64,000 bases of DNA from contig CAJNDT010006182.1 of the NCBI GenBank assembly GCA_905221615.1, positions 62,001-126,000 on the forward strand, read 5' to 3'. This document shows positions 36,927 to 56,629 of this stretch, in pieces. This stretch comes from Symbiodinium sp. CCMP2592. Taxonomy: Eukaryota; Sar; Dinophyceae; Suessiales; Symbiodiniaceae. Below the pieces are notes generated by a model. It was not told the DNA's origin. It saw only the letters and a program-made list of their open reading frames with translations, and did not search any database. Both the position numbers and the translations under genes were made by a program. The stretch's first letter is position 1, and each line of letters opens with the position of its first letter.

Positions 36927-36931
36927 CGCTT
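36927..36931. repeat. Target-site duplication, left copy
   Basis: CGCTT directly before the LTR at 36932; the identical five bases directly follow the other LTR at 56625-56629. Five bp is the usual duplication for Ty1/copia integrases. Confidence 0.93.
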
Positions 36932-37185
36932 TGCGTGGGGGATTGATCTCGACTTGGTTGCTGCTCTCCCCACCAGAGCTGTAATGAATGTAGGTGTGGC
37001 TGGCTAGCACTCTCCACAGACTGGACCCTGTCTCTCCCTCTTACTTCCACACGTGCAATCCTATGCAGGCAGAACCGGCGGCCGTTCCTTTTGCACTCAC
37101 TGCCGGCGGCGGTTCGTCTGTGCAACGGGATAGCTCTGATTGCTCAGGATAGAAGACACATATAGCACTTAGCTATGGGCATTGA

Positions 37186-37196
37186 CTTGAGCCAAA
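37186..37196 (-). promoter_or_regulatory. Spliced-leader-like motif in 3' LTR
   Basis: On the element's strand the bases read TTTGGCTCAAG, the last 11 nt of the conserved dinoflagellate spliced leader. The preceding bases do not match the rest of the leader. It may be a relic of a trans-spliced transcript that was reverse-transcribed, or chance. Confidence 0.45.
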
Positions 37197-37230
37197 CGTT
37201 GCGTTGGCGGTCACATAGAAAGGTAAAGAT

Positions 37231-37282
37231 GAGGGATGCGTAGCATGCCCCCTAGAGTCGAGGGACGCGTAGCGTGCCCCCT
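37231..37282. repeat. Tandem repeat within LTR
   Basis: Two copies of a 23-bp sequence (GAGGGATGCGTAGCATGCCC and GAGGGACGCGTAGCGTGCCC as first 20 bases) spaced 29 bp, with two changes between them. Present in both LTRs. Each half is partly palindromic, as a binding site might be; function unknown. Confidence 0.7.
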
Positions 37283-37363
37283 TCTCTTGCACTTTACACG
37301 GTCTTGCTCACAGCTCTTATAGTGACACCTTAGAACTTGACAAGGCATCGCAGTCCGTTCGCA

Positions 37364-37371
37364 CCCCCCAT
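37364..37371 (-). other. Polypurine tract
   Basis: On the element's strand ATGGGGGG sits immediately before the 3' LTR, the position where plus-strand DNA synthesis is primed. It is short compared with typical tracts. Confidence 0.6.
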
Positions 37372-37627
37372 GAGTTGCGTCTCCGACGCTGCTCACCCGG
37401 AAGATGGCACGATAGGACAACAGAAAATGTTCCGCCGCAACGTTGACATTGAAAATCAGAGCTTTGCATCCCAATTAGAAACGTTGTGACACTCATCTAC
37501 GTCAGTAACGATCCCCTGAAATGGCAAACGAATCAGGCGTCACCGAAGAAAGAAGCATTCGCGATGGCATTCCATGGGCGAAGCTCAGAGGTCACGAACT
37601 GATAGGCGAGGAAGACCAAGCGTTGAT

Positions 37628-40600
37628 TCACCTCCATCTTCGCGTGGTCGCAGGATCGCGGTCCCAGGGCCGGAGGTTTTCCTCTGGATACTGTTCCCGA
37701 TGCTTTCCCTTGTCCTTGCCTTTGTTTCGGCCTTTGCCGGCGGTGTAGTCGTAGTAGGAGTTGGAGTTCCAGCCTCCATGTTGCTCACCTCCGGTTCTCC
37801 CACGCCCTTTTGAAGGTCCCTTGGACGAAGAAGCGCTTTCACGTTCCTCCGTAGTGACAGGCGTGTCCAGGATGGAAGTACCACCTGGAGGGAGATAGTC
37901 AGCGGCCGAAATGTGGTGTAGGGCTTCAGTACGCTTGGTCGTCGGGTTTTGCTGTCTCTCAGCCTTGGATCTGTTCAATCTGTCCATGAAATGCGCAGGC
38001 ATTTGCACACTGTGGTCCACCAGCAAGCCGATGGTCTGGACTGACTGATCAGAATGAGTCAGCAGGATACCGACGGGGTCGATGTACAAGAAGTCCACCG
38101 GTCCAGTTGGCGTTGGTCGTAGCACTGAGAATTGTTGGTGTCCCGTCACCATTGGAATCACCTCGCACAGGACGTTCAGGCAACAAAAGTGCATAGCCTT
38201 CACATCTTCATCCCTTTCGCTCTTCAAGTAAGTAGTAGGGTTGAAGTTGTCCCTGCCAATTCCCATCATGTTGGCTCCCCGTGTAAGCAATGAAAGCATC
38301 TGGTTCGTCCGGAAGCGCTTCAAGGTGTAAGTCCCGTTGGGATCATACTGCTTGAGGTTTTCAGGCTCCTTGGCAAAGCGAATGATCTCCTCATCAGTCA
38401 CATCCTTGCTCACACCCGTTTCCCTATCCACTGCCGCCAAAGATCCCCACTTTCCGAGCACATCATAGCGTTGGCCAAGTGCGAAACTTTCCCTCATCTG
38501 GAACAACGGCATAGTCGCCCACTTTGCGAATCCTGACCAAGCCTTGTAGATGGATCTGCATACCACGTATGCCATGTACGAAAGAGCGGTCATGTTCGCA
38601 TCAATGCAATGGGCATTTCGCTTTCCAGAATAGTAGGATGGCTGCATGGCGGTACGTGCAAGTTGTAGCTCAGGATCGATGTTCAAAGACTGGCCGGTAA
38701 CGAAGACGGGACGACGTTCCTGTGCGATTGCTTCTGGAACTGCGTCATCAAAGTCCTCTCCTGGCTCTATGTCCATTTCTTCATCAGGTTCCTGTTCTGG
38801 ATCGTCCTCCGCGATGACAGATGGTTCTGGGATTTCCTCAGGTTCCGCAACGGTCTCTACCTCCATGGCTTCCTGCTCCTCTTCGGGCGCCTCAGGCACT
38901 GCGGCTGCTGCGGCTTCCATTGTCTGAGCAATGAAGTCACTGGGGATCTCCGTAGGAGTCTCCCGTTGTGGAGAACCTTGGTAATATCCGCTCGAAACGA
39001 ACTGTGACCAGCAAGACGTGCATCGGGAGAAACATGCTGGAACGATGTTGTAGCATGCCGGGCATACCCTCATTCTCCGTCCATCCTCGTCTCTGCGTAG
39101 GTCTTCGGGTCGCCAATTCTTGATGACAAACTTGATTCCTTTGTCCATGTAGTGATGCCGAACCGTGTTCTCCCTGTGGGACTCCAGGACAGTCGTGAGG
39201 TCTCGAATGATCTGCTCCTTGCTTGTGTCGTGGGGTCCAGGAGGCATCTCGCAAAGCAATTCCATGATCTTGCTTGGCGTTCGGTATCTCTCGAACTCAG
39301 GAAGCAACGGTGATGCATTGTAGTCCAACACCAGCTCTTTCTCCAACCGTTCATCGTAGATCTTTTCCACCAGAGCGAAAGAGTGTGTATCTCGAGGATC
39401 CGGGACGCAAAACCATACCTCCTTGACGAAATGGAAAGGTATCGTTCGGCCAACGATCATGATGCCGCTGTCTGTGATACGTCCATCCTCTCGTGCAAGG
39501 TCCTGCGATGGGACATGAAGGACCGCCAGTGGCATGTGCTTGGCGTCTCGTCCATGTACTCGCATCTTGGTCGTTGCGTTCCGGTGATCGAACGGCGCAA
39601 ACACCCCCCAATAGCTGTGGAGTCTGCCACCTTGGTTGCCTCGGAATTGGCGCCTATGGTCGAAGTCCCCGTCGGGGTCCTCCGAACCAGGCATGATGCC
39701 TTGCGTGACAATGGAATCCAAGTTGCGGCATGCCGTAGCGTGGAACGCACCTCCAAGACGTTGCAAGAGGGTCATAGATGGAGATATTGCGAACCTGTTC
39801 TTGTCCAACTGAAGCAAGTTGTTCTGGGGATCTGAGTGCGCAGAGTGACCACTCGTAGCCCGAACTGCCCATGGCTTCACCCAGCCGTTGCACATGTTCA
39901 GGTACCTCTGGCCATGCCGGCAATGATCGTTGTTCTGGATCTCCGTGATCTGGTCCTGAACCGATACCAACCTGTTCGAACCTGCTGATCCAAGAGTTTC
40001 CGTGCCGGGGTCCTTCACTCTCACACCCAGGAACTGCAACCGAATCTTGGCCTTGTGGCGTTTCGTGGCTGCAATCATGTTCCCTTGGAACAATAGCTGA
40101 AGTCTTTCATTGTACACTCTCTTCTTCTGTTGCTCATCGGTCCTTGAGACCGCTTCGGTGATGCGTCTGCTTTCATGGGTCCATAGTGGCTCATGCCTCA
40201 CCAAGTCTTCGATCATCACCCACCCTCCTTCATCACATTTGATGACGCTGTTGAATGCCACCTGGCACCTGTTGTCAAGCCATTCCGAGCCTGGGCGCCT
40301 GGCGATTCTGTGGCGCAGGTCAGATTGGATGCATGATAGCGCCCAATCCGCGTTCAGTCTGCGCTGACGGGTGATGTTGCGAAGGACAACTTCGTTCACG
40401 AGGTCCCATCGATTGTTGATGAAGCTTGCACCCTTGGTTGGGATCAGGTCGAGAATCCCGCACCGGATTGGCCTTCCGCCGCCGATGGATTCATAGCCTG
40501 CATTGGTGTAGCTATGAGTGGTATCATCGTAAGCAAAGCTAGGACGGTCTCCTCGTTGAGGTAGGCGTCGGTCGCGATGGTCCGAAAGCTGCTCAATGAG

Positions 40601-43600
40601 GTCCACCACTCGCTGGCTATTCTCTGGTCCCGATTCCTGCAGTGGTACGCCACAAGCATCATGTAGGCCCCGACGGTTCTCCACATCCGTGCAGAGATTG
40701 TGTTTGTTCTCATAACGGATCAAGACCACATCACCCCGTACGGCTTCGCCTCCGCGTCGCGGTCGGGCTTTGGCCTTGGGTCGTCGGTCCGAGGATGCAA
40801 CACTCACATGGTCTGTGGTGTCAACGTCCATTGGCTCAGCCTCTTGTGGAGGTACTCGACGTGGATATCGAAGAAGGCTTTCCTTGATAATCTGGACGCC
40901 TCGAAGTACCAGATCCCGGGTCGCAGCATTTTCTGTGCAATTGGACAGAGTGTGTAGATCACTGCCACAAGCGACACAGAACGTGATGCGGTCGCTTCCG
41001 ACTGACATTTCGCCCTGAGCGAGTACGCCCACATAGTCCTGAAGCTGCGCGACAAATCCTTCACGAATTGCATGCCTGGGATCAGGGCCTTCTGCACCTT
41101 GTTCTTCTTCGGGTTGCGCATCCACATCTACATCCTGTGCAGGTATTGGTGGAGCAACTGAGAACCCTGGATCGTCCGTGACGTTGTCAGCGGCCTGTGT
41201 CTCGTCGGTTCTCGCAATCTCTACAGGGTAGATATCACCATCGACGATCACTGTGAAATCAATCACGAGGTCAGCGGACATGTTGTTGACGATCTCAGCG
41301 ACTGCTTCATTCTTCTTGGGCGGTGTCCTTTTGCGCGGGGAGTCAACCGTGATCAGCTCGATAGCTTCGGCCGACGCGTAGCGGAAGAATGATCTTTCGA
41401 TTCCCCTCGCGCACGCATTTGCTCCCTCAAGGCCACCCCAATTCGGAAAATGACTTGGATGTCTCATTGCAATTGTAAGAAGCCCGAGCGCCAGCTCCAC
41501 TGTGTCACCCAGGAGCTCTTCCTTGGGCAAGACTGACCCTCTGTAGCATTCTTGGCGCTCTTCCGGAGTCAAAAGCATCCTCATGAAACCAGCATAAGCG
41601 CAGTTCCCGGCATCGTAGTAGCAGATGTAGCATGTCTTGCCTTCGGAGTCGTACCCTCTGTCCCACGCCAACTGTTTGGCCTTTCCCCATGCCGCGTACT
41701 CGATGGCCTGACTGGCTGTGATTCGGAGACCACCGTAGTGAGAAACCGTCTTGCCGATGTCTTCATAGACCATCTCCGCACAAACTTTGAGGAACTCCTT
41801 GATGTCCACACGAGGATCCACAAATTGGAGCCTCAGGTCATAAAGGTGCTTTGCGCAAGCCAAGGTGTACTTCTGGGACGTGATCAAGTCATTGAAGGAG
41901 CCGATTTGATGCTGCATCTTCAAGGCTGAAGTATGCGCGCACCCAATGCAGTGTCCAGGATACCCGTTTCCGGTCGGCTTGAAGAAGGCTTGTGCGTAGC
42001 ACTCAGCCAACTTCATTGCTTCACATCCAGAGCAATAGAACGTTCTCCCTTTGACATAACCAGTGTTCAGGGTCGCATAGGTGTCGATCCTGAACCAGTA
42101 GTGCCTGTTGTCGTAGTAGGCTTCGGGAACGGTCATGGCGATGTCAAAATCCTGCCAGGTGACTGTGGACGATTCAGCGACCGTGTCACCCTGGGCACCC
42201 GACCTGATCTGTTGCTGCTGTTCTCCCGTAAACCATGTCTGCGAAATCTTGGTGGACGTCTTGACTTCACTCTTGTCCTCCCAAATCTCGACAAGCGACG
42301 GGTGAGCGACTGAGTCGGTTCGGACAGTTTCGTCCCATGAGCGAACTTTCGATGCCTCAACAAAGCACGTGGATACCATCTTCTCGCAGAACAGCTGCTT
42401 CTCGTAGATAGCGAAGCCCAATTTGAACCTGACCCGATTGTCCGGTGCTGGCACCTTTTCGGCTGACAGTGTATGTACGCCTGATGACGCATGTTTCGCC
42501 TGGCTATACATTCTTGACCAAAACGAAGATCCATGAATCACCACGCATGCTCGGGCCCGCAACTCCAGTTCAATATACATTCCCAGCGCGTGGAAGCCGT
42601 TGAACATAGAAGCTTTCTGTCGAAGGTAATTGCTGGCTGCTCCTACGAACCGTAAGTCATGATTGATGTTGACAATTGGAGGGCGCGTGGTACGCTTCCC
42701 TGCCGCAATGATAGGGTCAACGTACGTGACCTTGAGCTGTCGCTGCAAGTCAGCACGAATTGCTGCTCCGTCTCCGACCTCACTCATCGGAAATGATATG
42801 TTCTCGATGAGGATCGCCTGGAGAGACAGATGGTAATGCAACGTGACGGTTGCAAGCTGCTCTTCAGTCAAGCCATCCAATGTCTCATTCACAGATTCCA
42901 ACGATCCCTTTGTGACTTGGAAGTTGTAGTTGGCACCTGCGGTGATCGACGGGCTCACAATGTAGATCTCACTCCATCCATGCATGACGAGATTTTCTCT
43001 CACTGTATGCGATGACCCTCTGGTCCTTGCGACCATGTCAAAGTCTTGGACGAGGATTGTGCATTGAGAGCGCATAGTCGCGGCATCAGGCTTGCCACCC
43101 ATACCCAAACTATTGCGAAATCCGTTCAGCGTGTTCATGGTGTTGATCCTTGCTTCTGCCGGAATTTCATCGTTGTCGACAAGATCGTTGTCTGCCTCGA
43201 TCATCACTGCCGAGGTAAGCATTGGAGGAGAAGGAAGATGCACGCATGACACCAATGCCAATGCATGGTACAGCCGTGAATACATCCGTAACCACATCTT
43301 CGTACTCAGCTTCACGTAGACCTTCAGGTTGAGACCCTTGTCGTCACTTTGAGAGACGGAACGAATCCTTGCCAAGTAGGTCACCAGTCTTCTGACGTAA
43401 TGCTGAATCGGTGTGGTCCCCACGTCGTGGTTGGCCACGAACTTTGGCGTCTCATCAATGGTAGGTGGGTACTCGTCTTGATCACGGGTCGTCGCCAGCA
43501 AGCTCGAGCGACAGCCCTTTTCATCGATGTTGACATAATGGTACCAACTTTCCTGAGCGCCAGCGGGGATTGGAGCTTCCTCCCATGTCGGTTGCGATGG

Positions 43601-45118
43601 TTCCTCTTCCGGTTGCGAAGTCGATGGTTGTGGAGGAGGTGCCGCGGAAGATGATGACGCCGATGCCGTTGCCTCGTCCGTCCTTGCCCTCTTTGGTCCG
43701 TGGCTAGGGGTGGCTCGAGGCTCGGCAGCGGATCCTTGCGATTGTCCCGGCGTTCTTCCATGCTCAGGGTGCACGATTCCTTCCGGTTCGAGGTTGCTTG
43801 CCGTAGGCATCGCAACTCTCCCCGTTGAGTATACCCAGCTAGGATGCCGTTGAAGATTGGGCGGAAATAGGCCATCATCTTGCATAAGCGGACTTGGTGC
43901 CCCCATCTGTTGGAATTCTGCTTCCCATATGCCCAACGTGGCGCGTTTGGTAGAGCAGTCGACCACGTACCCAGATTCAACTCCGCACTGATTCCAGGTG
44001 TAGCTACGGAACGCATCCGGCAATTGGAAGCCGTTCCTGTCCTGATCTGCGCATACAGCATCCACATGGTGCTTGAGGAAAGCATACGTGGTGTAGTCGG
44101 AATCAGGGAGCACATCGTTGGACCATCTGTAATGCGGGTGTCCAGTTTCTGGATCAACCCATGATACGTAGGAATGAAGCACGTGGAGACAGACACTGAA
44201 CGCCTGGAGCGAGTTCATCGCAAAGGCGAGCGGATGTCCCATGCCTTGAGGCATTGTGCGCATCATCAAAGCCAGCTGGTGAACGTTGAGTGGCGTAGCG
44301 CCATCGTTGCTCGCTGCACATTCCTGGTTGTAGGTCCGTAGTCCATACCCAGTGTGTTTTGCGAACATGTACATCAGCTTGCACACCCTACATAACGTAG
44401 GCTCCGCCAACAGGTCTGATTGGTCAGGTGCTCTACCTGACATAGGCAACTTGTGGTAGTAGTCCTGATTCACCGTATACCATTGTTGAATTCTCGTGTC
44501 TGTCACAGTCTGGTAGGGCGTCTCCACGGAGTTGATGAGAACGGCGAGGTTGTAGTACCCGTCCGCACTGACGATGTTCCTTGTTGCAGTGTTCAAGTCG
44601 AACCGAACTTGTTTTCGTTCTTGTTCCAGTTCAACTACAGCCAATTTTGCATCATCGCGGATCACTTCCTCATCCACCATAAACCTGGTGATGGCATTGA
44701 ACTTCCCCTCGTAGTCAGCAACAATGTGTTTGAGACCTCCACCAAACTTGATGACCATGGCGAGTATCTCCCCATAGGGTTTGTCCATGTACTCCTCAGG
44801 GGCAGCAAATAAGCAAGCTTTGAGGATTTCTCGGACTCGAATGGAAAGATCCCCTCCTGGCGACAGATTTGCACACGTGAACAGCAAGACCAACGGAGGT
44901 GCTTTGAACGCTGCCCATGTGCGAATGAGATCATTGTCGACCACTTTGTCTTTCGTAATCTTCGGCGGGAGCGAAACGCTCTGCGACGAATCCCCAGAAT
45001 ACATCTCCAGGAACTTGTGGAACTTCAGAAACGTTCGCATCATCCCACCAGACGGGAAAACTTCTTCGTGGTCCACTCCTTCGAAGGCCAGCTCGTAGGC
45101 ATTGTAGCTTTCAGCCAT
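37628..45118 (-). CDS. Copia ORF3: 2496-aa protein with Tpt1/KptA-like domain
   Basis: Third ORF of the element, starting at ATG 45118 in a good context, 112 nt after the ORF2 stop. Residues about 1598-1903 match the layout of RNA 2'-phosphotransferases (Tpt1/KptA), which remove a splice-junction 2'-phosphate using NAD+: an LRH pair (R1602, H1603), DEGGWVMIEDLV as in the family's winged-helix part, VRATSGHS (R1753), a FHATACRNLDSIVTQGI segment like the family's HGT...I..GI, and a further Arg in HGRDAKHMPLAV (R1857). These are the four catalytic positions known for the family. The domain is longer than the usual 180-210 residues because of insertions. Other visible parts are Cys clusters near 1028-1062, 1160-1176 and 1376-1392, a CPAC...CTSC knuckle at 2017-2040, acidic/Pro-rich linkers near 450-520 and 2050-2120, and a Gly/Lys/Arg-rich C-terminus that may bind RNA. 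Residues 1-1000 are not recognised. No membrane or signal segment suggests an envelope protein. Confidence 0.85.
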   Translation of the reverse strand: MAESYNAYELAFEGVDHEEVFPSGGMMRTFLKFHKFLEMYSGDSSQSVSLPPKITKDKVVDNDLIRTWAAFKAPPLVLLFTCANLSPGGDLSIRVREILKACLFAAPEEYMDKPYGEILAMVIKFGGGLKHIVADYEGKFNAITRFMVDEEVIRDDAKLAVVELEQERKQVRFDLNTATRNIVSADGYYNLAVLINSVETPYQTVTDTRIQQWYTVNQDYYHKLPMSGRAPDQSDLLAEPTLCRVCKLMYMFAKHTGYGLRTYNQECAASNDGATPLNVHQLALMMRTMPQGMGHPLAFAMNSLQAFSVCLHVLHSYVSWVDPETGHPHYRWSNDVLPDSDYTTYAFLKHHVDAVCADQDRNGFQLPDAFRSYTWNQCGVESGYVVDCSTKRATLGIWEAEFQQMGAPSPLMQDDGLFPPNLQRHPSWVYSTGRVAMPTASNLEPEGIVHPEHGRTPGQSQGSAAEPRATPSHGPKRARTDEATASASSSSAAPPPQPSTSQPEEEPSQPTWEEAPIPAGAQESWYHYVNIDEKGCRSSLLATTRDQDEYPPTIDETPKFVANHDVGTTPIQHYVRRLVTYLARIRSVSQSDDKGLNLKVYVKLSTKMWLRMYSRLYHALALVSCVHLPSPPMLTSAVMIEADNDLVDNDEIPAEARINTMNTLNGFRNSLGMGGKPDAATMRSQCTILVQDFDMVARTRGSSHTVRENLVMHGWSEIYIVSPSITAGANYNFQVTKGSLESVNETLDGLTEEQLATVTLHYHLSLQAILIENISFPMSEVGDGAAIRADLQRQLKVTYVDPIIAAGKRTTRPPIVNINHDLRFVGAASNYLRQKASMFNGFHALGMYIELELRARACVVIHGSSFWSRMYSQAKHASSGVHTLSAEKVPAPDNRVRFKLGFAIYEKQLFCEKMVSTCFVEASKVRSWDETVRTDSVAHPSLVEIWEDKSEVKTSTKISQTWFTGEQQQQIRSGAQGDTVAESSTVTWQDFDIAMTVPEAYYDNRHYWFRIDTYATLNTGYVKGRTFYCSGCEAMKLAECYAQAFFKPTGNGYPGHCIGCAHTSALKMQHQIGSFNDLITSQKYTLACAKHLYDLRLQFVDPRVDIKEFLKVCAEMVYEDIGKTVSHYGGLRITASQAIEYAAWGKAKQLAWDRGYDSEGKTCYICYYDAGNCAYAGFMRMLLTPEERQECYRGSVLPKEELLGDTVELALGLLTIAMRHPSHFPNWGGLEGANACARGIERSFFRYASAEAIELITVDSPRKRTPPKKNEAVAEIVNNMSADLVIDFTVIVDGDIYPVEIARTDETQAADNVTDDPGFSVAPPIPAQDVDVDAQPEEEQGAEGPDPRHAIREGFVAQLQDYVGVLAQGEMSVGSDRITFCVACGSDLHTLSNCTENAATRDLVLRGVQIIKESLLRYPRRVPPQEAEPMDVDTTDHVSVASSDRRPKAKARPRRGGEAVRGDVVLIRYENKHNLCTDVENRRGLHDACGVPLQESGPENSQRVVDLIEQLSDHRDRRLPQRGDRPSFAYDDTTHSYTNAGYESIGGGRPIRCGILDLIPTKGASFINNRWDLVNEVVLRNITRQRRLNADWALSCIQSDLRHRIARRPGSEWLDNRCQVAFNSVIKCDEGGWVMIEDLVRHEPLWTHESRRITEAVSRTDEQQKKRVYNERLQLLFQGNMIAATKRHKAKIRLQFLGVRVKDPGTETLGSAGSNRLVSVQDQITEIQNNDHCRHGQRYLNMCNGWVKPWAVRATSGHSAHSDPQNNLLQLDKNRFAISPSMTLLQRLGGAFHATACRNLDSIVTQGIMPGSEDPDGDFDHRRQFRGNQGGRLHSYWGVFAPFDHRNATTKMRVHGRDAKHMPLAVLHVPSQDLAREDGRITDSGIMIVGRTIPFHFVKEVWFCVPDPRDTHSFALVEKIYDERLEKELVLDYNASPLLPEFERYRTPSKIMELLCEMPPGPHDTSKEQIIRDLTTVLESHRENTVRHHYMDKGIKFVIKNWRPEDLRRDEDGRRMRVCPACYNIVPACFSRCTSCWSQFVSSGYYQGSPQRETPTEIPSDFIAQTMEAAAAAVPEAPEEEQEAMEVETVAEPEEIPEPSVIAEDDPEQEPDEEMDIEPGEDFDDAVPEAIAQERRPVFVTGQSLNIDPELQLARTAMQPSYYSGKRNAHCIDANMTALSYMAYVVCRSIYKAWSGFAKWATMPLFQMRESFALGQRYDVLGKWGSLAAVDRETGVSKDVTDEEIIRFAKEPENLKQYDPNGTYTLKRFRTNQMLSLLTRGANMMGIGRDNFNPTTYLKSERDEDVKAMHFCCLNVLCEVIPMVTGHQQFSVLRPTPTGPVDFLYIDPVGILLTHSDQSVQTIGLLVDHSVQMPAHFMDRLNRSKAERQQNPTTKRTEALHHISAADYLPPGGTSILDTPVTTEERESASSSKGPSKGRGRTGGEQHGGWNSNSYYDYTAGKGRNKGKDKGKHREQYPEENLRPWDRDPATTRRWR

Positions 45119-45230
45119 GGCTCGGGTTTCGGTCCTTCCTCCGTAGGAGGGAAGTCCCTACACCCTACTCGACTTCACGGTTCCGGGTTCTCCGTAAGAG
45201 GCACCCTTCCCCGATCCGTCTGGTCAGACC
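45119..45230 (-). other. ORF2-ORF3 spacer with hairpin
   Basis: A 112-nt gap between the ORF2 stop and ORF3 ATG. It contains an inverted repeat at 45136-45153 (TTCCTCC, loop GTA, GGAGGGAA) able to form a 7-bp stem with one bulged base. It is the natural place for a splice acceptor or other device for expressing ORF3, but I see no known motif. Confidence 0.5.
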
Positions 45231-48200
45231 TTAGTTGTTCCTTAGTTGGGGCTGTCTAATAGCCCCTTCATCAGCGTCTACACACTGATGTTGCTGCCAT
45301 GCAATGTCCTCAGATTCATGTGCAACATGACTGACACTGACATGAGCTCGAACAAGGCTGCGAACATTCCTCGCAATTGACCGCCATGAGACATCAATGC
45401 GCTGCGACAAACTGCTCTTCGAATCATGGTCCAAGCAATCATCCGGTCTCACCATCAAACGATCCGCTTCAGGCATGTTAGAGAACATGATCCTGCGTCC
45501 ACCACCATCGCCGTCAGCACCAACATGATCATCAACCTTAACCTTCGTCACCTTGCCACTTGAAACAAGAGCATGCAACTCTGGCCAAGACCAACATGAA
45601 CATGAAGAAGGCATGTCAAGCGAAAAATAGACGTCGGAAAATTCCGCACACTTCTTCAGCAGGCGTTTGAGAGATTTCAAGACACTTCTGAAAACCTTGT
45701 ACTTCCCACCAGAACGTTTCTCACCCCCCACGCAAGCCCCTTCACTACTTCCAGGACCAGCACCTGATCGCAAAAGCGATGCCACGAATAGCACAGGTGT
45801 GCGCAGGTCGTTCCGGCACGCATCCTTGATCGTACCGATAAGGTTGTCCTCATCGGCTTTGGAGCTGATCAGCTCCTTGCAAGTTATGCGAGAGCAACCC
45901 TTAGTGGACTTAGGCACGGCGTAGCCATTACCCAAGCCACAGAGGTCAACAATCATGCGGTCTGGCTTTCGTCCACCAGCCTTCGACGGCATGGCTACCA
46001 ATCTCCCATCGCCAGTTGCCTGAAATTTCAAGGCTTTAAGCAATCTTCTGGAGATTTGGCTAGTCAACTCGCATTTATCAGATCGATCCTTAGCGTCCGA
46101 ATCAGTCATGTGCAAATGTTTGGACGAGCACACATCAGACGACTTAGGATGCAACGCGACGTTTGCGGCAATGTACTCCCATTCATCCTTGCAGTAGCCG
46201 AGCTCAACGGCGGTTCCGGGAGATACAGGATCCCGAAAGGTATAACGTTGCCCGTGAGTGCATCCTTGGATCTTGATGCTCTTCCACATGGCATCTTCCT
46301 GAAGTCCCTTGTACTGCTTGGTTTCCTGGACTGGTACTCGAGGAGGCACTTCGATGATGATTTGGAACCCCCATGATGCCGCTCTGCGCGCAATTCTTTG
46401 GACGACCTCCCCCCATGGGTAGTCTGTCCGCAATTTGGCCCTTTCAGGGTTGTCAGCGATTTTCCGACTCAGCCACGAATTCTTGCCCAACACCCCTGCA
46501 CCAATGAAGATTACGGAGTTAGGGTTGTCTTTCCTTGCTTCCACCACATCAAAGAGGTAGGCGCACATGGCGTCGTCAACTTCTCGCCCCATACTCAGAA
46601 CATTTACTTGCAGCCCAGGGTCGTAGTGCGAATCAGGAGCATGCTGGGCGATGCAATCCTTGCCTGGAGCATACTCATTCCACCAGTTCTCCTCATCGAC
46701 TCCTATCAATGTCCACACCGTCACTGCCTTTGGAGCATCTTTGATAGTGATACGGTACTTCCACCGGCTGTAAGGATTCTTGTAAGTATGGACCAACCTT
46801 CCATCGTGGTCGAGGAATTGGATCACCAGGCCCTCCTTGGGTTTGTTTTCGGCGAAATTGACCACGTGAGGCACAATTGCTCCATCATATCCTTGATATT
46901 CCCTTTTCTGTTCCGCCGCATCATGCCATACATCTTCGTACACCGACGACCATTGGTCATAACCAAATTGAGAGGCTTGACTTTTGGACTGGCCGTTGAA
47001 ACAAAATCCCTGGTGCAATGTAAAGCCCTGGTACCCCCCATGGATGGCACGCGCCAGTGTGACAACCACCGCTCGCCATTTGGCGGGCAGGGCGCGCACA
47101 TAAGACTGGCCTAGAGGCGGTTCAGGAGGAGGCAAAAACGGCGGCGCAAGGACGTCCGCAATGGCGGCGGGGCGCAAATGCCCCCGTACCGGATGGTACT
47201 GAAACACAGCACGCTCCACGTAGCGGTCGAACTTGCCCGGTGTGTCAAGGATAGCAGCACGATCCTCCATCTGGTGCCACTGCCCTTCACGAAGAATCCA
47301 AGTCGACCGAAGGTAACGACCAGGCGGCAACGCAGAAGGCGGCCCCCGCAACATGCGCGGGAACTTGACAACCAGGATGGGGTCCACACTGTCATGTTCT
47401 TGCAAGCCTTCCTTACTCGACAATCCAGCGCGATACAACACCTGAGGGAGGATCGGCGTCTGCGTGTAAGGAAAACAAGGCACCTCGCTCTTGAACGAGT
47501 AGTGCTGCTGACCCTTCTCATCCGTGCTTTGGGTATGAGTAGGGCGCATCAGATCCATAATCTCTTGGGAGCCGATGAGATCCGGCGGAAAGATGTTGAT
47601 GAGCTGACACGCATGTGTCCAGGACACGGAATCCTTGAACGACTTGGTGTGTATGTCCGCTGACATCTTGGCAGTGACCTCATAGGCAAGAGAAACGTAA
47701 CCTTCCTGAAAGATAGAATGCATCCATCCAATGCAGATACCGTGGGTACGTTCCAAGTGACGCATAGTCGGATTCTTGCCCGTGCGAATCACCCCGATCA
47801 TGGTCTGGTTGTCGTCGTAGAAGACGAAGTTGGGGTCTTGCCCCCCAAGCTGCTGCCACAACGTGATAGCAGGCAATCCAAGACGTGACATGGCAAAGTC
47901 GGCCGCGACAATCTCGGCCTCAGGTGTGGAATGACTCAAGCATCCCTGCCTTTTGCTAAGTCCCGCCAAGGGAAATCTTGTGTGAGAACCTTGAATGTGC
48001 AAATGAGCACCGGAGGTAGATTTCAAACTTTCTCCACAACCTGCATAGTCCGCATCTGCAAACAGCCCGATGGACGAGTCCTCCAAGGAGTTCCCGACCC
48101 ATCCAATCATCATGTGATGTTTGGACTGGTGCACATAGGCCATGAGATGATGAAGAAGAGCATCCTCCTTCTTGGTCCATTTCGTGATCTTGCGTGCGAG

Positions 48201-51200
48201 ATTGTTGATACTGCGCAGAAGATCAAAGCGGCAAATGCGCGCGGCATAAAGCAATTTCATGAGAATGCTGGCTGCCTGCGGAGCAAGTGCACCGCGATTA
48301 GCCTCGTTGATTTCCTCTTCCTCGGGCGCCTTGGGAATAGGTGGAGGCGGAACGAGCCGACCATCCTTATCAACAGGCATGGTGTGTCCACACCACGTGC
48401 ATCGATGGCTTTTACCTGACTGTGCCGGAGCGCGAGCTGGGTGATTCTTAGTCTCCTCAGCCGGACTCGGCGATGGTACCGTCTTGAATTTTGTCGGATC
48501 GAACCCAGTCACGTCGCAGTACTTCTTGACTGTCATGTCCAGGTACGTCTCCATGTCGTAGGTAACGGTCTGCACCTTCGTTTTGTCATGCAACGTTGCC
48601 TCGCCCTTGGAGATGCGACAACCCAGATACAAGCCCAGTGGCGTTTCTTCTTCCAATCGAAGTTCTTGGCGCAGCATGTCCCAACCCTTGGGTAGATTCT
48701 CTTTGGGTCCTGCCATCTTGAGATCATCCACGTAGATGACAAGCAAGAGTTTCATTTGCGGGTGGAAATACAGCGATGGCCATTCGTCGCCAATCGGCTT
48801 GAATCCTACTTTCTGTACCGCGGTATGGCAATGTTGTTCCCACATGGTTCCTGCGTCAGGATGTCCATATAGAGCTTTGATCAGGCGGCACACAGGTCTG
48901 CGGAATTTGTGCCGTTTCGCGGATGGATGCCAGGCTTCATCAGGCAGTTCAACCCAACATGGAGTACCCGACAATCTTGCCTGAATGTATGCTTGGATAG
49001 CATCCGCCATCTGGACATCGTTGCCGGGAAGGCATCCGTAATAATCTGCCCACCGTGAGGCGTCAAACGTAGCCGGGGAATTCCCCAAATCCTGAAACAA
49101 TGCGGCTTCCATATTCTGGTCTTTGACCTGATCACCGAGTAGTACACCTCGCCCTTTGAACTTCCTGGCAGGATCGTCCTCTTTGAGCTGATAGTTCTTC
49201 TCGTATATCAGTCCATGTACTCGCGCCATGTGTACTTTCTCACCTTTCTTCTTTGCCTCAGCGACGACGTCGTCATATTCACGCGTAGTTGAGAAGTCAA
49301 ACACCTCTTGGTCCCACAATCCCTTCCATTCTTTCATGAAAGCTTCCATGGCCTTGGGATTGTTGATCATCTCCTTGCGTGTGACGGGTCGAGTGACCAT
49401 GGCATTGAAGCACGATCCTCCTGCATGATTCTTTTCCCGATGTACGTTTCTGTGAGAAGTCGTACACGGCATAGAAGGAATCCAGTTATCATCCATGACC
49501 ATATGCGCCGGAACGGCCGGCACAACATCTGCCAAGAATTGTTCCTGTGTATATTGATCCACATAGGACTGTGCCCATGACCAACCATCGTCGTCATCAA
49601 TGGACACGTTGAGTTGCAGATCAATTTCTTCACATGGGACAATCTTGGGAAAGATCATGTTGTCCAAAATCTTGGTAACTATCTTCTTTCCTATCACAGC
49701 CTTCTTCCGGTCTTTCTTGGCAACTCGAGCTTTGTCTCGCTTTTCTTTCTTGTATGCTGCCTTCTTCTCCGTTTCGCTCATCTTCTTCCATGCTTCCGGA
49801 GAATAAGAATGGATAGGTCGCCGTGTAGGAAGAGTTCGTCGACCGTCACTTCGGATCTTATACGGAACTCCCCTTTTGTCGATCTTGCAGGCTTCACCGT
49901 CATCGGTGAGATATACAATGCCGTCCCCTTTCTTCCCCGTACTCCAATGTTCAATCTCCTCGGGAGCCAACTTCTTTTCTTTCAAGATCTTGATAATCTC
50001 TCCAGGTTCTTCGATGTCTCCTTCGGGGATGAGTCTACCGGTTGGACCGACTTCGCGGGGCGATCGTCGATCTTTCCCAGTGACCTTTGGTTCAGAAGGA
50101 GGCGGTGCTGCACGTAGACCCAGCTCTTCGTCTAGTTCTTCGAGTCTTTTGTCTCCTATGGCATCAATAGCTTCATGTTCTGCTGACTTGAAGACTTCGC
50201 CGGGCGGCTCCGTCTCTATGTCAGATGGATCTATGTCCTGTAAGTCAGGATCTTCTCCGGGATCCGGTGGAGGAAGAAGTCCATTTTGATCATCATCATC
50301 CCCGTCGCCACCATTTCCTCCAGGCGGACCGTCATCACCGTCATCGACGTCTTTTATCTCCTTGCCAGCGAGGTCAACGTTGTCCCTGAGTCCCTCAATG
50401 GTTGAATTCATCCTTTCGTACTCGGCTTTCAGGGGAAACGTTATCTCCTCTGGGAAGTAGATAACTTCTGTCTCGTACGGTCTCATCAACTTCCTGGGAA
50501 CAGATGCGTCCATCGACAAGTTCGCATTGGCAAATTCCTTCATATCCCAAACGCGATACTTCTTGGACCATCCTTGACCAGCAGTGATGATGTATCCGGC
50601 AAAAATGCCTGGAATCCCCTTTGGATCGAATTTGTTGCCATATGTCTTCGGCCTTGTGTCCGTCGGCTTGAAGAAGACTTTGGCCCCAAAGGGTATGGCT
50701 TTTCCCTCGAAGTCCTTTCCAGTCATTCGCTTCCATGCTGAATCACCATCGCCCTCCACGTCTTCAACGTTGAGGTTCTGCATCACGCAATTAAGCGCAA
50801 AGGACCAGTATTGAGCGGGCAATCCGGCGTGTAGCATGGATGCTGCGACTGTGTTGATCACTTCTTGATTTGATCGTTCAGCGAGTGAATTGTTACTGGG
50901 TTTCCCTGGAAGGGAATGATCTATCACGATCTTCAACTGCGCCATAGCTGAATCGAACTCTGGTGCTTCATCACTGTACGCCATATGAATCTTGCGTCTT
51001 CCCATAAGGCGTCTGATGGCCATGACGACTTCGTCAGTGCTCCTTGAAGCCGTGGGAATCGCTGCGATCATTTTGGTGGCGATGTCTCTGATGACTAGAA
51101 CTTCACGTGCTCCGTCATCGAGTCCGATGCCTGCTTCGGCGGCCTTGCGCATGTCAAGGAAGTCGAACGTCACAAGATCTCCCCAGTGTTTGATCACACG

Positions 51201-54200
51201 TTGAAACGCACCTCGTTGTGTTCGCAAGTGCTTCATCTTCGCGCGTATGCACGATTCGCAATATGGGTTGCGGTAGCGATGAGTACACAGATGTGCCAAC
51301 GTCTTGGCTTCGGCTTTCAGTGTTCCGACTCTGGCCTTGCGGCTCGGCGCACCGTCGCCTTCCACATCAATGATCACCTCATCGTCACCATCCAATGGAA
51401 TTTCACCCACTCCTTTTCCTTCGTCGTCGTCCGGAGGTCGTCCGGCTTCGGACTCTGGTACTTCTTCTATAGGAGGTTCTTGGGGTTCAGGATCAGGAGG
51501 TCGTTCGTGATCGTCACCTTCTTCTTCTGCTTCAACCTCGCTCGGTGCAGCTTCAGCGGCAGCTGCGACGCTAACGTCAACATTGCCCGCTGTTAGCGCA
51601 CCCTTGAAGATTTCGGTGATCGCTTTGGCCTCCGGATCATCATGAACCAATGACTTAGAACTCCCGGCACGAACGTACGGGATGTCACCGTTCACGAACA
51701 GAGATATTCTCTTGCCCTGCGGGTTGATCATGAATGGTTCCCTTCCGGGTGGCCACACAAACCCGTAGTTGAAGTTCATACATCTCTTGCCTATGGAAAG
51801 CACCGACGGTGTGTCATCCAACACATAAGCGTTGATCGGTTCCTCGAACGACTCAGTCTGGAAATTCGACACGAGATCGGTATCGGTGATTCCATTGGCT
51901 GTCTGAAATGATATGGGCTCTGGAGTCACGAGTGTTTCGAGACTGTGCTTCTCGATCTTCTTCTGAGATATGAGGTCATGACCACACCCAGTGTCCATGA
52001 GAAACTTGATCTTCTTCTTGAGGATGACTGGTTGAACCATGCATTTGAATACGCCTTGATTGATGATCCGTTTGCTGTGTGCAGCATCGAGTTCGCGCTC
52101 AACGATGGAATCCTCACCGTCGTAGAAAGAAACTTCTTCCACTCGAGACGTTCCTGGGATTCGTACGAATGAAACTCGATCTCCGCATTGGTCATCATCG
52201 TCGTCAACCATGTCTCTCATGATCTGTGCCCTCAATCTCGCTTTGTGCTTGGCGAATTCCAAGCTCACGGCGCGGTCCTCATCATTGATAAACGCTTCCA
52301 TGTCGACGTACTTCACCTTCCGCTCTTTGTCTTTCTTCGATCTTCTAGGACACGAAGAAATGAACTTCACGTCATCGGCAAATGTCACATTGCGCTTTAT
52401 CACTTTTCGGGTCGACGTAGTCGTTCCCGAGGATTCGTCATCTGTTGAACAATCCGAATCAGCGTCGCTGTCAACGGATGGACAATCTGACTCCTCCTCA
52501 TCTTGTCTTGAAGATCGCTTCCATATAGCCGGAGCTGATGGATTCCACCTTCGACACAATCTGATGGCGGGTGCCGCAGGGAGTGCCTTGGCCTTGGCAT
52601 TCGGCTTCGCTGGAGCTGCCTTCGCTTCGGATTTAGCTTTAGCTTTTGCCTTTGGTTCCGGAGCTGGGGTAGCTGCTGCCTCATGCTTGAAAGGACAATT
52701 CTCTCTTGAGCACGAGCCTGTGTTCTTGAACGAGTAGCATATCCTGTTTCCTCCTCCTCCAGATGGACTTGGAGTTCTCGTCCTCGGCGTGAAGGGTCGC
52801 TCTGGAGTCTTCTTCGAGTGACTGAATGGACACTTATCGCCATTTCGACACCCTGCATCTGTGAAATGGAACTTGCAGCGGATTTGCTTCTTGCTTTTGT
52901 CACCTCTGTTGTCCGCTGACTCACTCCTCGTCTTCTTCTTGGGCTTTGGCTTGGTCTTCGCATGACTCTTCGCTTTGCTTTGAGGTAGTACAGGTGTTGC
53001 TTTATCCGGCTTGGTCGGCGAAGCCTTGACCTTTGCGGATGGAGCTGCGTTAGGCGTAGGTTTCTCGGGTACCTTGGCCGGTGCAGCAAGCAAATCCTTG
53101 CCCTCAAGCATCTGGCGCAAGCCAATTTGGGTCTGAGTGAGATTTGACTGTTCTCGTCTCCGCATGATAGTACGATCAATGATCTTCATCAGGTTGTCGT
53201 ACGATCGGTCTTCATGATTGTAGGGCAAGTGTTCGTAATGCATGCCCAACTCCATCTTCATTGCGGGCGAGTCCTTGATCTTGCTGTACAAGCAATCACG
53301 GAGAGCTGTTTTGGATGGAATGTCCTCTGGTCTCATCCGTCCCAGAACTTCCAACCACGTTTGCTTGAACGTATGAAGCTTGTTGTCGCCTTGGTACTGG
53401 AGCTTCACCAAATACTCAAGAGTGATGATCATGTCGAGACGATCGTGCGTTCGAAAACTTTCATACATCATCGCAATGATTTGTCGTCCTTTGATGATCT
53501 TCCCGTCAGGCCTGCTGATGTAATCGTTAGCCTTCCGGTTCACCTCAAGGTACAGGTCAGCTGATTTGTCACCACCGGCACGTAGCATTGCGACCATGGC
53601 GATCCCCAATTTGACGTCTATGCTCTTGAACTTCTTGTGTCCTGAATCATTCAATGCTTCGACATCAGGGAATGGGTTGAACGCTGGTGCCAGCCATAAC
53701 ATCCAGTCCTCATGATGTGGGTCGGCTGATGCTCCTAAGACATTGGCCGTGCACACGGATCGCCAGTTGTTGAGATGAGTGAGAGTAGGCCATGGAGGAA
53801 CGGTCACTTTGTCGGCTTCCCTCCTGGAAATTCTCACCTCTGTGACTTCAGGATCCGCGTCTCCATCAGGATCACGCGCATGCGAGCCAGGATCCGATTC
53901 AGGCTTGCCTCCACCGCTTTTCTTCTTATCATCATCATCGTCAGGCGGGTCAGGAGGGTCATACCCCGTGCCGGTTCCTTCATCGTGCTCTCCATCTTCG
54001 TTCTCGTCGCCAGCCTCGTCACCGTCATCGTCTCCATTATCCTCCTGAATCGTTTCAGCGAATAACTTCCACTCATCACGATCAGCTCTGAGACGTTGTT
54101 CGGCTTTCTGGGCCTTGAGTACTTCGCTTCGCAGATCGGCAATCTTCTCCTCGTACCGTTCCGCGACCTCTTTCTCGATCTGACGTCTCCTTGCTTCATG

Positions 54201-54494
54201 AATGGAATCGTCATAGGCAATAGGGGGACCGATGAGGTCGTTGCCCTTCGTAGATGCGGTAACACCGTCGATACCAACAGGTCTTGAGGAGCTGGCAGAT
54301 GCTGTGGACTTCGATCCCAACATCCCGCGATCCTCCAAGAGTTCGCGTAGCTGTCGATCACGCACGGCTGCCGCATCACTTTTCCCATGAAATCCGCTTG
54401 GTATGCCGAACAAAGTGGCTGCACTAGGCGTGGAACGCGCAAGTGCTGGGCTGCTAATACCTGGCACGTAGTGCTCGGGCATTGCATCCGCCAC
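45231..54494 (-). CDS. Copia ORF2: Gag-Pol polyprotein with C-terminal extension
   Basis: 3088 codons. The first frame codon at 54494 is GTG; the first ATG is four codons later (54482), and the frame is open upstream, so it may be reached from ORF1 by a frame change. In order: charged coil (about 95-140), acidic linker, capsid-like helical region (235-450), two CCCH zinc fingers (about 538-562, C-x8-C-x5-C-x3-H; about 584-603, C-x8-C-x4-C-x3-H), aspartic protease (LMDTGCGHDLIS, about 833), integrase zinc segment with HLCTHRYRNPYCESC (about 1066) and a D-D-E core (about 1109, 1175, 1205; LAERSNQEV), reverse transcriptase (LIKALYGHPDAGTMW; YVDD at about 1921), and Ty1-type RNase H (FADADYAG about 2145, TPEAEIVAADF, YDDNQT, SADIHTK to about 2285). 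All catalytic residues are present. Residues 2300-3087 are not recognised; two parts look folded (about 2560-2720 and 2840-3000). Confidence 0.95.
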   Translation of the reverse strand: MADAMPEHYVPGISSPALARSTPSAATLFGIPSGFHGKSDAAAVRDRQLRELLEDRGMLGSKSTASASSSRPVGIDGVTASTKGNDLIGPPIAYDDSIHEARRRQIEKEVAERYEEKIADLRSEVLKAQKAEQRLRADRDEWKLFAETIQEDNGDDDGDEAGDENEDGEHDEGTGTGYDPPDPPDDDDDKKKSGGGKPESDPGSHARDPDGDADPEVTEVRISRREADKVTVPPWPTLTHLNNWRSVCTANVLGASADPHHEDWMLWLAPAFNPFPDVEALNDSGHKKFKSIDVKLGIAMVAMLRAGGDKSADLYLEVNRKANDYISRPDGKIIKGRQIIAMMYESFRTHDRLDMIITLEYLVKLQYQGDNKLHTFKQTWLEVLGRMRPEDIPSKTALRDCLYSKIKDSPAMKMELGMHYEHLPYNHEDRSYDNLMKIIDRTIMRRREQSNLTQTQIGLRQMLEGKDLLAAPAKVPEKPTPNAAPSAKVKASPTKPDKATPVLPQSKAKSHAKTKPKPKKKTRSESADNRGDKSKKQIRCKFHFTDAGCRNGDKCPFSHSKKTPERPFTPRTRTPSPSGGGGNRICYSFKNTGSCSRENCPFKHEAAATPAPEPKAKAKAKSEAKAAPAKPNAKAKALPAAPAIRLCRRWNPSAPAIWKRSSRQDEEESDCPSVDSDADSDCSTDDESSGTTTSTRKVIKRNVTFADDVKFISSCPRRSKKDKERKVKYVDMEAFINDEDRAVSLEFAKHKARLRAQIMRDMVDDDDDQCGDRVSFVRIPGTSRVEEVSFYDGEDSIVERELDAAHSKRIINQGVFKCMVQPVILKKKIKFLMDTGCGHDLISQKKIEKHSLETLVTPEPISFQTANGITDTDLVSNFQTESFEEPINAYVLDDTPSVLSIGKRCMNFNYGFVWPPGREPFMINPQGKRISLFVNGDIPYVRAGSSKSLVHDDPEAKAITEIFKGALTAGNVDVSVAAAAEAAPSEVEAEEEGDDHERPPDPEPQEPPIEEVPESEAGRPPDDDEGKGVGEIPLDGDDEVIIDVEGDGAPSRKARVGTLKAEAKTLAHLCTHRYRNPYCESCIRAKMKHLRTQRGAFQRVIKHWGDLVTFDFLDMRKAAEAGIGLDDGAREVLVIRDIATKMIAAIPTASRSTDEVVMAIRRLMGRRKIHMAYSDEAPEFDSAMAQLKIVIDHSLPGKPSNNSLAERSNQEVINTVAASMLHAGLPAQYWSFALNCVMQNLNVEDVEGDGDSAWKRMTGKDFEGKAIPFGAKVFFKPTDTRPKTYGNKFDPKGIPGIFAGYIITAGQGWSKKYRVWDMKEFANANLSMDASVPRKLMRPYETEVIYFPEEITFPLKAEYERMNSTIEGLRDNVDLAGKEIKDVDDGDDGPPGGNGGDGDDDDQNGLLPPPDPGEDPDLQDIDPSDIETEPPGEVFKSAEHEAIDAIGDKRLEELDEELGLRAAPPPSEPKVTGKDRRSPREVGPTGRLIPEGDIEEPGEIIKILKEKKLAPEEIEHWSTGKKGDGIVYLTDDGEACKIDKRGVPYKIRSDGRRTLPTRRPIHSYSPEAWKKMSETEKKAAYKKEKRDKARVAKKDRKKAVIGKKIVTKILDNMIFPKIVPCEEIDLQLNVSIDDDDGWSWAQSYVDQYTQEQFLADVVPAVPAHMVMDDNWIPSMPCTTSHRNVHREKNHAGGSCFNAMVTRPVTRKEMINNPKAMEAFMKEWKGLWDQEVFDFSTTREYDDVVAEAKKKGEKVHMARVHGLIYEKNYQLKEDDPARKFKGRGVLLGDQVKDQNMEAALFQDLGNSPATFDASRWADYYGCLPGNDVQMADAIQAYIQARLSGTPCWVELPDEAWHPSAKRHKFRRPVCRLIKALYGHPDAGTMWEQHCHTAVQKVGFKPIGDEWPSLYFHPQMKLLLVIYVDDLKMAGPKENLPKGWDMLRQELRLEEETPLGLYLGCRISKGEATLHDKTKVQTVTYDMETYLDMTVKKYCDVTGFDPTKFKTVPSPSPAEETKNHPARAPAQSGKSHRCTWCGHTMPVDKDGRLVPPPPIPKAPEEEEINEANRGALAPQAASILMKLLYAARICRFDLLRSINNLARKITKWTKKEDALLHHLMAYVHQSKHHMMIGWVGNSLEDSSIGLFADADYAGCGESLKSTSGAHLHIQGSHTRFPLAGLSKRQGCLSHSTPEAEIVAADFAMSRLGLPAITLWQQLGGQDPNFVFYDDNQTMIGVIRTGKNPTMRHLERTHGICIGWMHSIFQEGYVSLAYEVTAKMSADIHTKSFKDSVSWTHACQLINIFPPDLIGSQEIMDLMRPTHTQSTDEKGQQHYSFKSEVPCFPYTQTPILPQVLYRAGLSSKEGLQEHDSVDPILVVKFPRMLRGPPSALPPGRYLRSTWILREGQWHQMEDRAAILDTPGKFDRYVERAVFQYHPVRGHLRPAAIADVLAPPFLPPPEPPLGQSYVRALPAKWRAVVVTLARAIHGGYQGFTLHQGFCFNGQSKSQASQFGYDQWSSVYEDVWHDAAEQKREYQGYDGAIVPHVVNFAENKPKEGLVIQFLDHDGRLVHTYKNPYSRWKYRITIKDAPKAVTVWTLIGVDEENWWNEYAPGKDCIAQHAPDSHYDPGLQVNVLSMGREVDDAMCAYLFDVVEARKDNPNSVIFIGAGVLGKNSWLSRKIADNPERAKLRTDYPWGEVVQRIARRAASWGFQIIIEVPPRVPVQETKQYKGLQEDAMWKSIKIQGCTHGQRYTFRDPVSPGTAVELGYCKDEWEYIAANVALHPKSSDVCSSKHLHMTDSDAKDRSDKCELTSQISRRLLKALKFQATGDGRLVAMPSKAGGRKPDRMIVDLCGLGNGYAVPKSTKGCSRITCKELISSKADEDNLIGTIKDACRNDLRTPVLFVASLLRSGAGPGSSEGACVGGEKRSGGKYKVFRSVLKSLKRLLKKCAEFSDVYFSLDMPSSCSCWSWPELHALVSSGKVTKVKVDDHVGADGDGGGRRIMFSNMPEADRLMVRPDDCLDHDSKSSLSQRIDVSWRSIARNVRSLVRAHVSVSHVAHESEDIAWQQHQCVDADEGAIRQPQLRNN

Positions 54495-56128: not shown

Positions 56129-56166
56129 TGTGGTCGTAGTAGATCAAGTAGTCGTTGCTGTAGAAA

Positions 56167-56192
56167 GGCAGAGCCGCGTACGGCTGATAACC
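56167..56192 (-). other. Primer-binding site resembling a tRNA anticodon arm
   Basis: Directly after the 5' LTR the element reads GGTTATCAGCCGTACGCGGC. It lacks the TGG that pairs with a tRNA CCA end. Its complement contains UACGG-CUGAUAA-CC: a 5' anticodon stem, a 7-nt loop of the canonical CU-NNN-AA form with GAU as anticodon (Ile), and two stem bases. Drosophila copia is known to prime from a half-tRNA that ends in the anticodon arm, so an analogous primer is plausible. The tRNA identity is inferred. Confidence 0.55.
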
Positions 56193-56624: not shown

Positions 56625-56629
56625 CGCTT
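56625..56629. repeat. Target-site duplication, right copy
   Basis: CGCTT, identical to 36927-36931. Confidence 0.93.

Follow-up and report, generated by a model that had tools for sequence, protein, structure and literature searches.

In the reaction of the Tpt1/KptA/TRPT1 family of RNA 2'-phosphotransferases (PF01885), the RNA 2'-phosphate attacks nicotinamide adenine dinucleotide (NAD+) and then leaves as ADP-ribose cyclic phosphate. PMC6333775, which describes this chemistry, gives Arg18, His19, Arg68 and Arg121 as the essential tetrad of CthTpt1 (6E3A), with the adenosine ribose held by His101 and Thr103 of the HGT motif and the NAD phosphates by Arg139 and Arg140. Arg121 corresponds to the R in RQYVHL of the Cth sequence as printed there. 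KptA is also found on selfish elements in the form of viruses, and is embedded in a polyprotein in two viral cases (PMC9503650). Dinoflagellate retrotransposons carrying a DNA methyltransferase (DNMT) are known as SymbioLINE-Dnmt and SymbioDIRS-Dnmt3, and the paper on these describes Symbiodinium Copia elements as having no DNMT domain (PMC5890265). The stretch of Symbiodinium sp. CCMP2592 DNA analyzed here (the window; 64,000 nucleotides, positions 62,001 to 126,000 of contig CAJNDT010006182.1) contains a complete copia-type long terminal repeat (LTR) retrotransposon, and the third open reading frame (ORF) of this element, ORF3, includes a divergent Tpt1/KptA-type domain that is probably an active enzyme and part of the element, as judged from its sequence and that of its copies.

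The ORF3 domain resembles canonical Tpt1 in the order of its motifs, in the Arg-His-Arg-Arg tetrad and in the K-x-R, IRAxxGHS and HxT motifs. It differs in its length of about 315 rather than about 180 residues, which is due to segments inserted between K-x-R and GHS as well as at other places, in having HAT for HGT and SxS for SxN, in the absence of a fixed NAD-phosphate arginine, and in lying on its own long branch and inside a 2496-residue retrotransposon ORF. As with SymbioLINE-Dnmt and SymbioDIRS-Dnmt3, a captured nucleic-acid-modifying enzyme retains its key residues in many copies and occurs in more than one class of retroelement, although both the enzyme and the element class are different from those in PMC5890265. 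The carriers in PMC9503650 are viruses; its passages on KptA name no KptA-bearing retrotransposon, and the word "transposon" is used 0 times in that paper. No Tpt1-bearing retrotransposon turned up among the papers listed in literature searches by title, abstract beginning and term count, which included few subscription papers, and the literature searched held no paper pairing Symbiodinium with Tpt1 or "PTS 2-RNA" with dinoflagellate. Tpt1, KptA and retrotransposon do co-occur in PMC4053983, which names the Pfam family only in an Entamoeba table.

The domain and the frame that contains it are located as follows.

37628..45118, minus strand: ORF3, 2496 amino acids, with the Tpt1/KptA domain inside (Pfam match; 75% identical full-length relative P0004)
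39404..40351, minus strand: Tpt1/KptA-type domain, residues about 1590-1905, comprising an RNA lobe, insertions and an NAD lobe

Within ORF3 the motifs follow each other as LRH (1601), DEGGWV (1629), VRATSGHS (including R1753), FHATA (1792) and HGRDAKHMPLAV (from 1855). A first-pass annotation of the window had quoted these segments as standing in Tpt1/KptA order; all of them are present as it stated, and its span of 39400-40325 matches the domain well. It had also offered a PF01885 profile search as a check on the domain, and in this search PTS_2-RNA scores 26.8 bits with the whole of ORF3 and 33.8 bits with the domain alone, over a cut-off of 26. PTS_2-RNA is the single Pfam family matched in ORF3 at E values up to 1; the match spans positions 21-122 of the 177 in the profile, and all six members of the first family alignment (6/6) match it at E values up to 0.1. 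Searching the ORF3 region against about 5.8 billion proteins returned 5 relatives, and a profile built from these and the window returned 51 proteins, 8 of which have a precomputed PF01885 label. The same profile run against PDB sequences places the RNA 2'-phosphotransferase 8tfz at the top with a weak E value of 0.0039, followed by 8tfi at 0.044. The comparison of profiles by hhalign set a 40-row alignment (39 of the 51 proteins plus the window) against a canonical Tpt1 profile of five sequences from the same genome, four from loci of long interspersed nuclear element (LINE) type and one from a probable host gene. It gave a score of 53.8 and a probability of 90.5, with all motifs aligned in order, as compared to at most 23.1 for 200 column shuffles and 11.6 for the reversed profile.

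Some of the detection results weigh against this assignment. An unrelated chain is third in the PDB profile search with an E value of 0.15, and the best single-stretch i-Evalue of the 8tfz match is 0.16. Single-sequence searches are weak: in PDB, phmmer with the domain as its query yielded one chance match only. The full-length match to canonical Tpt1 needs the 40-row profile, as a 6-row profile aligned only the NAD-lobe part (98 C-terminal columns, probability 79.4). The NCBIfam KptA equivalog (NF002014) scores 18.9 bits, so far below its cut-off of 239 that the domain belongs to the wider family as a divergent relative and is not an orthologue of bacterial KptA. Taken with the motif order and the shuffle controls, the ORF3 domain is a well-preserved but divergent relative of Tpt1/KptA, and the homology is real. 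As a separate observation, phmmer of P0046 against PDB found no match.

The catalytic residues were assigned from an unguided MAFFT alignment. This alignment and the tree hold 21 window-type rows, selected from 57 for having at least 200 letters and no gap at residues 1602, 1693 and 1832, together with 55 canonical rows (50 taken from 72, and 5 loci).

40310..40315, minus strand: R1602 and H1603 (CthTpt1 R18 and H19), conserved in 21/21 and 21/21 window-type and in 53/55 and 51/55 canonical rows
40040..40048, minus strand: K1691-I-R1693 of K-I-R-L (CthTpt1 K66 and R68), R1693 in 21/21 window-type and 55/55 canonical rows
39734..39742, minus strand: H1793-A-T1795, the HGT motif with Gly replaced by Ala, H in 19/21 and T in 20/21 window-type rows
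39623..39625, minus strand: R1832 of GRLH (CthTpt1 R121), in 19/21 window-type and 52/55 canonical rows and in 35/35 genome copies including the window
39548..39550, minus strand: R1857, variable and outside the tetrad, with R in 30 of 35 copies (window included) and P in the other 5

K1691 is likewise conserved in the alignment. In the unfiltered set of 57 window-type rows, counting rows with a letter at the position, conservation is similar for R1602 (41/42), H1603 (40/43), R1693 (49/53) and R1832 (36/38), and for H1793 (37/42) and T1795 (40/43) of the HxT motif. All four tetrad residues, R1602, H1603, R1693 and R1832, are constant in 35/35 gapless genome copies, window included. The first-pass annotation had named R1602, H1603, R1753 and R1857 as candidates for the catalytic four; the former two hold, and R1753 and R1857 are ruled out as tetrad members because the tetrad aligns with R1693 and R1832 in their place. 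The conserved Arg in IRAxxGHS corresponds to R1753. R1857 lies close to the position of the NAD-phosphate-binding Arg139/140; 33 family rows have a letter at this site, which is Arg in 15 of them.

Three features of the active site count against an enzyme working as canonical Tpt1 does. The Gly of HGT is Ala in the window (Ala or Val in the family), the window has Ser in place of Asn in the C-terminal SxN motif, and the NAD-phosphate arginine, Cth R139, is without a fixed equivalent in window-type domains, its candidates R1853 and R1857 both lacking a clean alignment and R1857 being variable. The last of these bears on function, as loss of the NAD-phosphate Arg in RslTpt1 impairs activity and leads to accumulation of the ADP-ribosylated intermediate (PMC6333775).

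The domain is under purifying selection. The copies compared were the 20 best DNA matches, one of which (L021) is the window, and 16 chosen stretches, minus the gapped L041; all of them come from the top of the protein or DNA matches, which biases the set toward low nonsynonymous divergence (dN). The ratio of dN to synonymous divergence (dN/dS) is 0.09-0.28 for 15 copies against the window. In the 35 rows including the window, 139 of 226 distinct variants are synonymous where 27.7% would be expected, with a binomial p of 3e-26 that serves as a guide only, since the copies are non-independent. The single "stop" variant is an artefact of judging lone bases on the window background, and 36/36 stretches are open. 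Across 13 copies, likewise non-independent, dN/dS is 0.16 for the whole domain and 0.24 for flanking ORF3, and by segment it is 0.07 for the NAD lobe, 0.14 for the RNA-lobe segments and 0.30 for the inserted segments. A point against reading special constraint into the whole domain is that its difference from the flank stems from a higher dS (0.166 vs 0.112), dN being alike in the two (0.0261 and 0.0272). The NAD lobe is distinct in dN itself (0.0139).

The element that carries ORF3 extends over 19,693 bp on the minus strand of the window.

36932..56624, minus strand: complete copia-type LTR retrotransposon, 19,693 bp, with paired terminal repeats, target duplication and RVT_2 in ORF2
56193..56624, minus strand: 5' LTR in element orientation, with the same letters as 36932-37363
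36932..37363, minus strand: 3' LTR; the LTRs lie at near equal offsets in 6/6 other copies
36927..36931, no strand: first copy of the target site duplication, AAGCG in element orientation and CGCTT on the plus strand
56625..56629, no strand: second copy of the target site duplication, 5 bp
56173..56192, minus strand: putative primer binding site GGTTATCAGCCGTACGCGGC, adjoining the 5' LTR and placed by position
37364..37369, minus strand: putative polypurine tract GGGGGG, adjoining the 3' LTR and the same in 6/6 copies
53834..56128, minus strand: ORF1, 764 amino acids, in a gag-like position and without a Pfam match
45231..54494, minus strand: ORF2 (pol), with CCCH fingers, aspartyl protease (weak), SH3_retrovirus (weak) and RVT_2
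48606..48902, minus strand: RVT_2 reverse transcriptase stretch, ORF2 residues 1865-1963, 33.2 bits over a cut-off of 31.6

Both LTRs are 432 bp long and 100% alike, start with TG and end with CA. An RVT_2 match over its cut-off and TG..CA LTRs with a 5-bp target duplication are what a copia element should have, in agreement with the host assigned by the first-pass annotation. Further Pfam matches in ORF2 follow the copia order, with the protease at 20.9 bits and SH3_retrovirus at 15.7 bits both below their own cut-offs, and the integrase core is represented by rve_3 alone, weakly, at an E value of 0.17. ORF2 overlaps ORF1 in a different frame, and several hundred residues at its end, after the RVT_2 and RNase H region, have no Pfam match at E values up to 1. 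The identity of the LTRs points to a very recent insertion. The host is a copia-type LTR retrotransposon, probably one that is currently or very recently active.

Copies of the element are abundant in the genome (1.098 Gb searched in 5383 contigs). The best 40 of 930 candidates in a DNA search with the domain are all 99-100% identical, the window being one of them, and the best 124 of 1162 candidates in a protein search are open through the domain (124/124), 45 of them within a frame of at least 2490 residues. As these are the best-scoring copies, the 124/124 does not give the share of broken copies in the family as a whole. For six further copies, picked for an open ORF3 frame of 2509 residues and for lying on the plus strand, the reverse transcriptase and both LTRs are within about 45 bases of the place predicted from the window (6/6). 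Exact 5-bp duplications flank 3/6 of these and 4/7 with the window; copies C224 and C1447 are without a target duplication and that of C1979 has one mismatch. The reverse transcriptase stretch is open in 5/6, with C224 having a gap and a stop there. The primer-site letters are the same in the 5/5 other copies where the fetched stretch reached the site. Order, spacing and LTR ends common to the window and 6/6 copies make the domain part of the mobile element, which is very young and present in many copies.

The relatives of ORF3 extend this association beyond near-identical copies. P0004 matches ORF3 over its whole length with 75% identity and P0008 with 29%. P0007, a protein model of 2705 residues from Symbiodinium sp. 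KB8, bears a precomputed RVT_2 label. Its residues 1-1487 align with ORF2 residues 1257-2829 at 65% identity, and over residues 1486-2703 it matches ORF3 and the domain within it, in four segments with 25-54% identity. From these alignments P0007 appears to be a collinear pol and ORF3 in an element whose pol differs by one third, and since it is a gene model, the fusion of ORF2 with ORF3 may come from the annotator. In the tree, a branch with 100/99 support and a long stem separates 21/21 window-type rows from the 55 canonical rows. The first-pass annotation had suggested that the element captured a kptA-type gene from a host or bacterial source and keeps it intact; intactness is borne out by the 124 best copies, and the source is not, as the long branch apart from all canonical rows leaves the donor without a name. 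At the DNA level no phage relative was found, and a search for viral-contig relatives of the host-type Tpt1 at locus L002 gave 19 pattern stretches with 0 confirmed.

An active Tpt1-type enzyme is quite likely on these sequence features, and its belonging to the element at the same time is nearly as likely. The domain is predicted to be formed by a winged-helix RNA lobe and an ADP-ribosyltransferase-type NAD lobe. It would carry out the Tpt1 reaction, with an RNA 2'-phosphate (or a terminal phosphate) attacking NAD+ and becoming ADP-ribosylated, and an internal 2'-phosphate would be removed after this step. It may act in cis on the replication RNAs of the element, either genomic RNA or a tRNA-derived primer, and thereby keep 2'-phosphates from host cleavage and ligation from stopping reverse transcription. 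Drosophila copia primes from a half of tRNA-iMet, and cleaved tRNA halves can carry 2'-phosphates. In the window, the sequence adjoining the 5' LTR reads GGTTATCAGCC..., and the putative primer site, which starts GGTTAT, resembles a sequence complementary to a tRNA anticodon arm and not to a tRNA 3' end. Extension by the reverse transcriptase of a half-tRNA primer with a 2'-phosphate would generate an internal 2'-phosphate beside a 3'-5' phosphodiester, which is exactly the canonical Tpt1 substrate. As the role of the enzyme, cleaning of the template or primer is given a little less than even probability.

A different role for an active domain would be as an RNA or DNA end ADP-ribosyltransferase that keeps the Tpt1 fold and caps RNA or cDNA of the element at 5'-phosphate ends. 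ADP-ribosylation of 5'-phosphorylated RNA is known for human TRPT1 and S. coelicolor KptA (PMC6582358), and the Arg whose loss in RslTpt1 leads to accumulation of the ADP-ribosylated intermediate is not fixed here. However, R1602 and R1693, whose RslTpt1 equivalents Arg16 and Arg64 drive the second step, are constant in 35/35 copies including the window, and capping is rather doubtful as the function. Slightly less likely still is an effector directed at the host, which would mend or re-modify host tRNAs after cleavage by a defence ribonuclease, or ADP-ribosylate host RNA. The case for such action comes from viruses: KptA carried by large phages is interpreted as repairing tRNAs that the host has cleaved, and a few DNA and RNA viruses of eukaryotes are reported to have KptA domains (PMC9503650). 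In the three element ORFs, Pfam at E values up to 1 shows no domain of the 2H, kinase, ligase or macro kind as a partner, and a strictly intracellular element would gain less from host-directed repair than a virus.

The remaining explanations concern whether the domain is active and whether it belongs to the element. An inactive relic or scaffold, in which the fold survives to bind RNA in particles after loss of the chemistry, would fit the long branch from canonical Tpt1, the change from HGT to HAT and the variable NAD-phosphate Arg. It is improbable in view of the tetrad and the H and T residues, which are retained by family members with 36-75% identity to the window, and of the NAD lobe, which at a dN/dS of 0.07 is the most constrained part. 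A host gene, a nested insertion between the LTRs or an assembly artefact was suggested by the separation of ORF3 from pol and by its length, which is unusual for a copia element. This possibility is hard to credit, as order, spacing and LTR ends are alike in the window and the 6/6 chosen copies, exact 5-bp duplications are present at 4/7 copies, and the arrangement is collinear in P0007 with a pol that is only 65% identical. An active Tpt1-type enzyme belonging to the element is favored over these explanations.

Tpt1 domains also occur in other retroelements of the same genome. A PF01885 genome search gave at least 152 matches with the best 150 of 1550 candidates scored, the copia family not being among these. 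Four LINE-type loci have a canonical Tpt1 domain beside an endonuclease or reverse transcriptase, and a further repeat family contains a Tpt1 ORF of 665 residues.

L014:3449-9901: LINE-type element, an ORF with Tpt1 and after it ORFs with endonuclease and RVT_1
L016:4229-9900: LINE-type element, Tpt1 and endonuclease in one frame of 1397 residues and a weak RVT_1 in the next
L013:4179-9900: LINE-type element, Tpt1 ahead of an ORF with endonuclease and weak RVT_1
L012:1-5347: LINE-type element, Tpt1 followed by endonuclease; RVT_1 was not sought past the end of L012
L017:6371-9790 and L009:1-5361: 665-residue repeat family, with an RVT_1 ORF, a ubiquitin carboxyl-terminal hydrolase-like ORF, a 304-residue ORF and the 665-residue Tpt1 ORF, which comes after the RVT_1 and hydrolase-like ORFs

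A clear RVT_1 is found further along in L018, beyond the weak RVT_1 of L016, and the L012 and L013 domains are counted as one kind because they are 80% identical. The Tpt1 domains of the LINE-type elements group among canonical sequences in the tree. With four such loci, the association of Tpt1 with retroelements is recurrent, and Tpt1 has entered at least two unrelated retroelement classes; the copia and LINE domains may also derive from one early capture, the root of the tree not being fixed. That unrelated elements each have their own Tpt1 suggests a benefit to the elements from such RNA processing. It is conceivable, if rather unlikely, that the unrelated dinoflagellate classes each recruited Tpt1 because 2'-phosphate removal or ADP-ribosylation is a regular step at the template or at the cleaved tRNA primer. 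With these findings LTR retrotransposons gain an RNA-repair enzyme among their components, LINE-type elements of the same genome have Tpt1 as well, and RNA 2'-phosphate or NAD+-dependent RNA end chemistry becomes a possible step of retrotransposition. Carriage by retroelements would account for much of the abundance of Tpt1-type domains in this genome without recourse to host tRNA splicing.

About 85 of the listed PF01885 rows are in frames of exactly 665 residues, with 95-99.7% identity between the copies compared, and the 665-residue ORF has a second, weak PARP-like match below the cut-off. Some of its copies are about 10 kb apart on one contig (e.g., C890) in a tandem-like arrangement. On the minus strand of L015:1-3561, an RVT_2 ORF lies near a 665-residue Tpt1 copy and has a CCHC zinc knuckle instead of CCCH fingers.

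Outside 39404-40351, most of ORF3 matches no Pfam family at E values up to 1. Parts of it are conserved in P0004-P0008, and conservation of ORF2 reaches residue 2829 in P0007. Beyond the domain, ORF3 residues 2019-2037 (39008-39064, minus strand) hold a cysteine cluster, CPAC..C..CTSCW, and clusters resembling it are also present in P0005, P0006, P0023 and P0043; it is possibly a zinc ribbon travelling with the domain. Scans of the window found no tRNA and no Rfam match. AAACCCT-like (telomere-type) units form a long array inside the contig, at positions 19888-21822 of the window.

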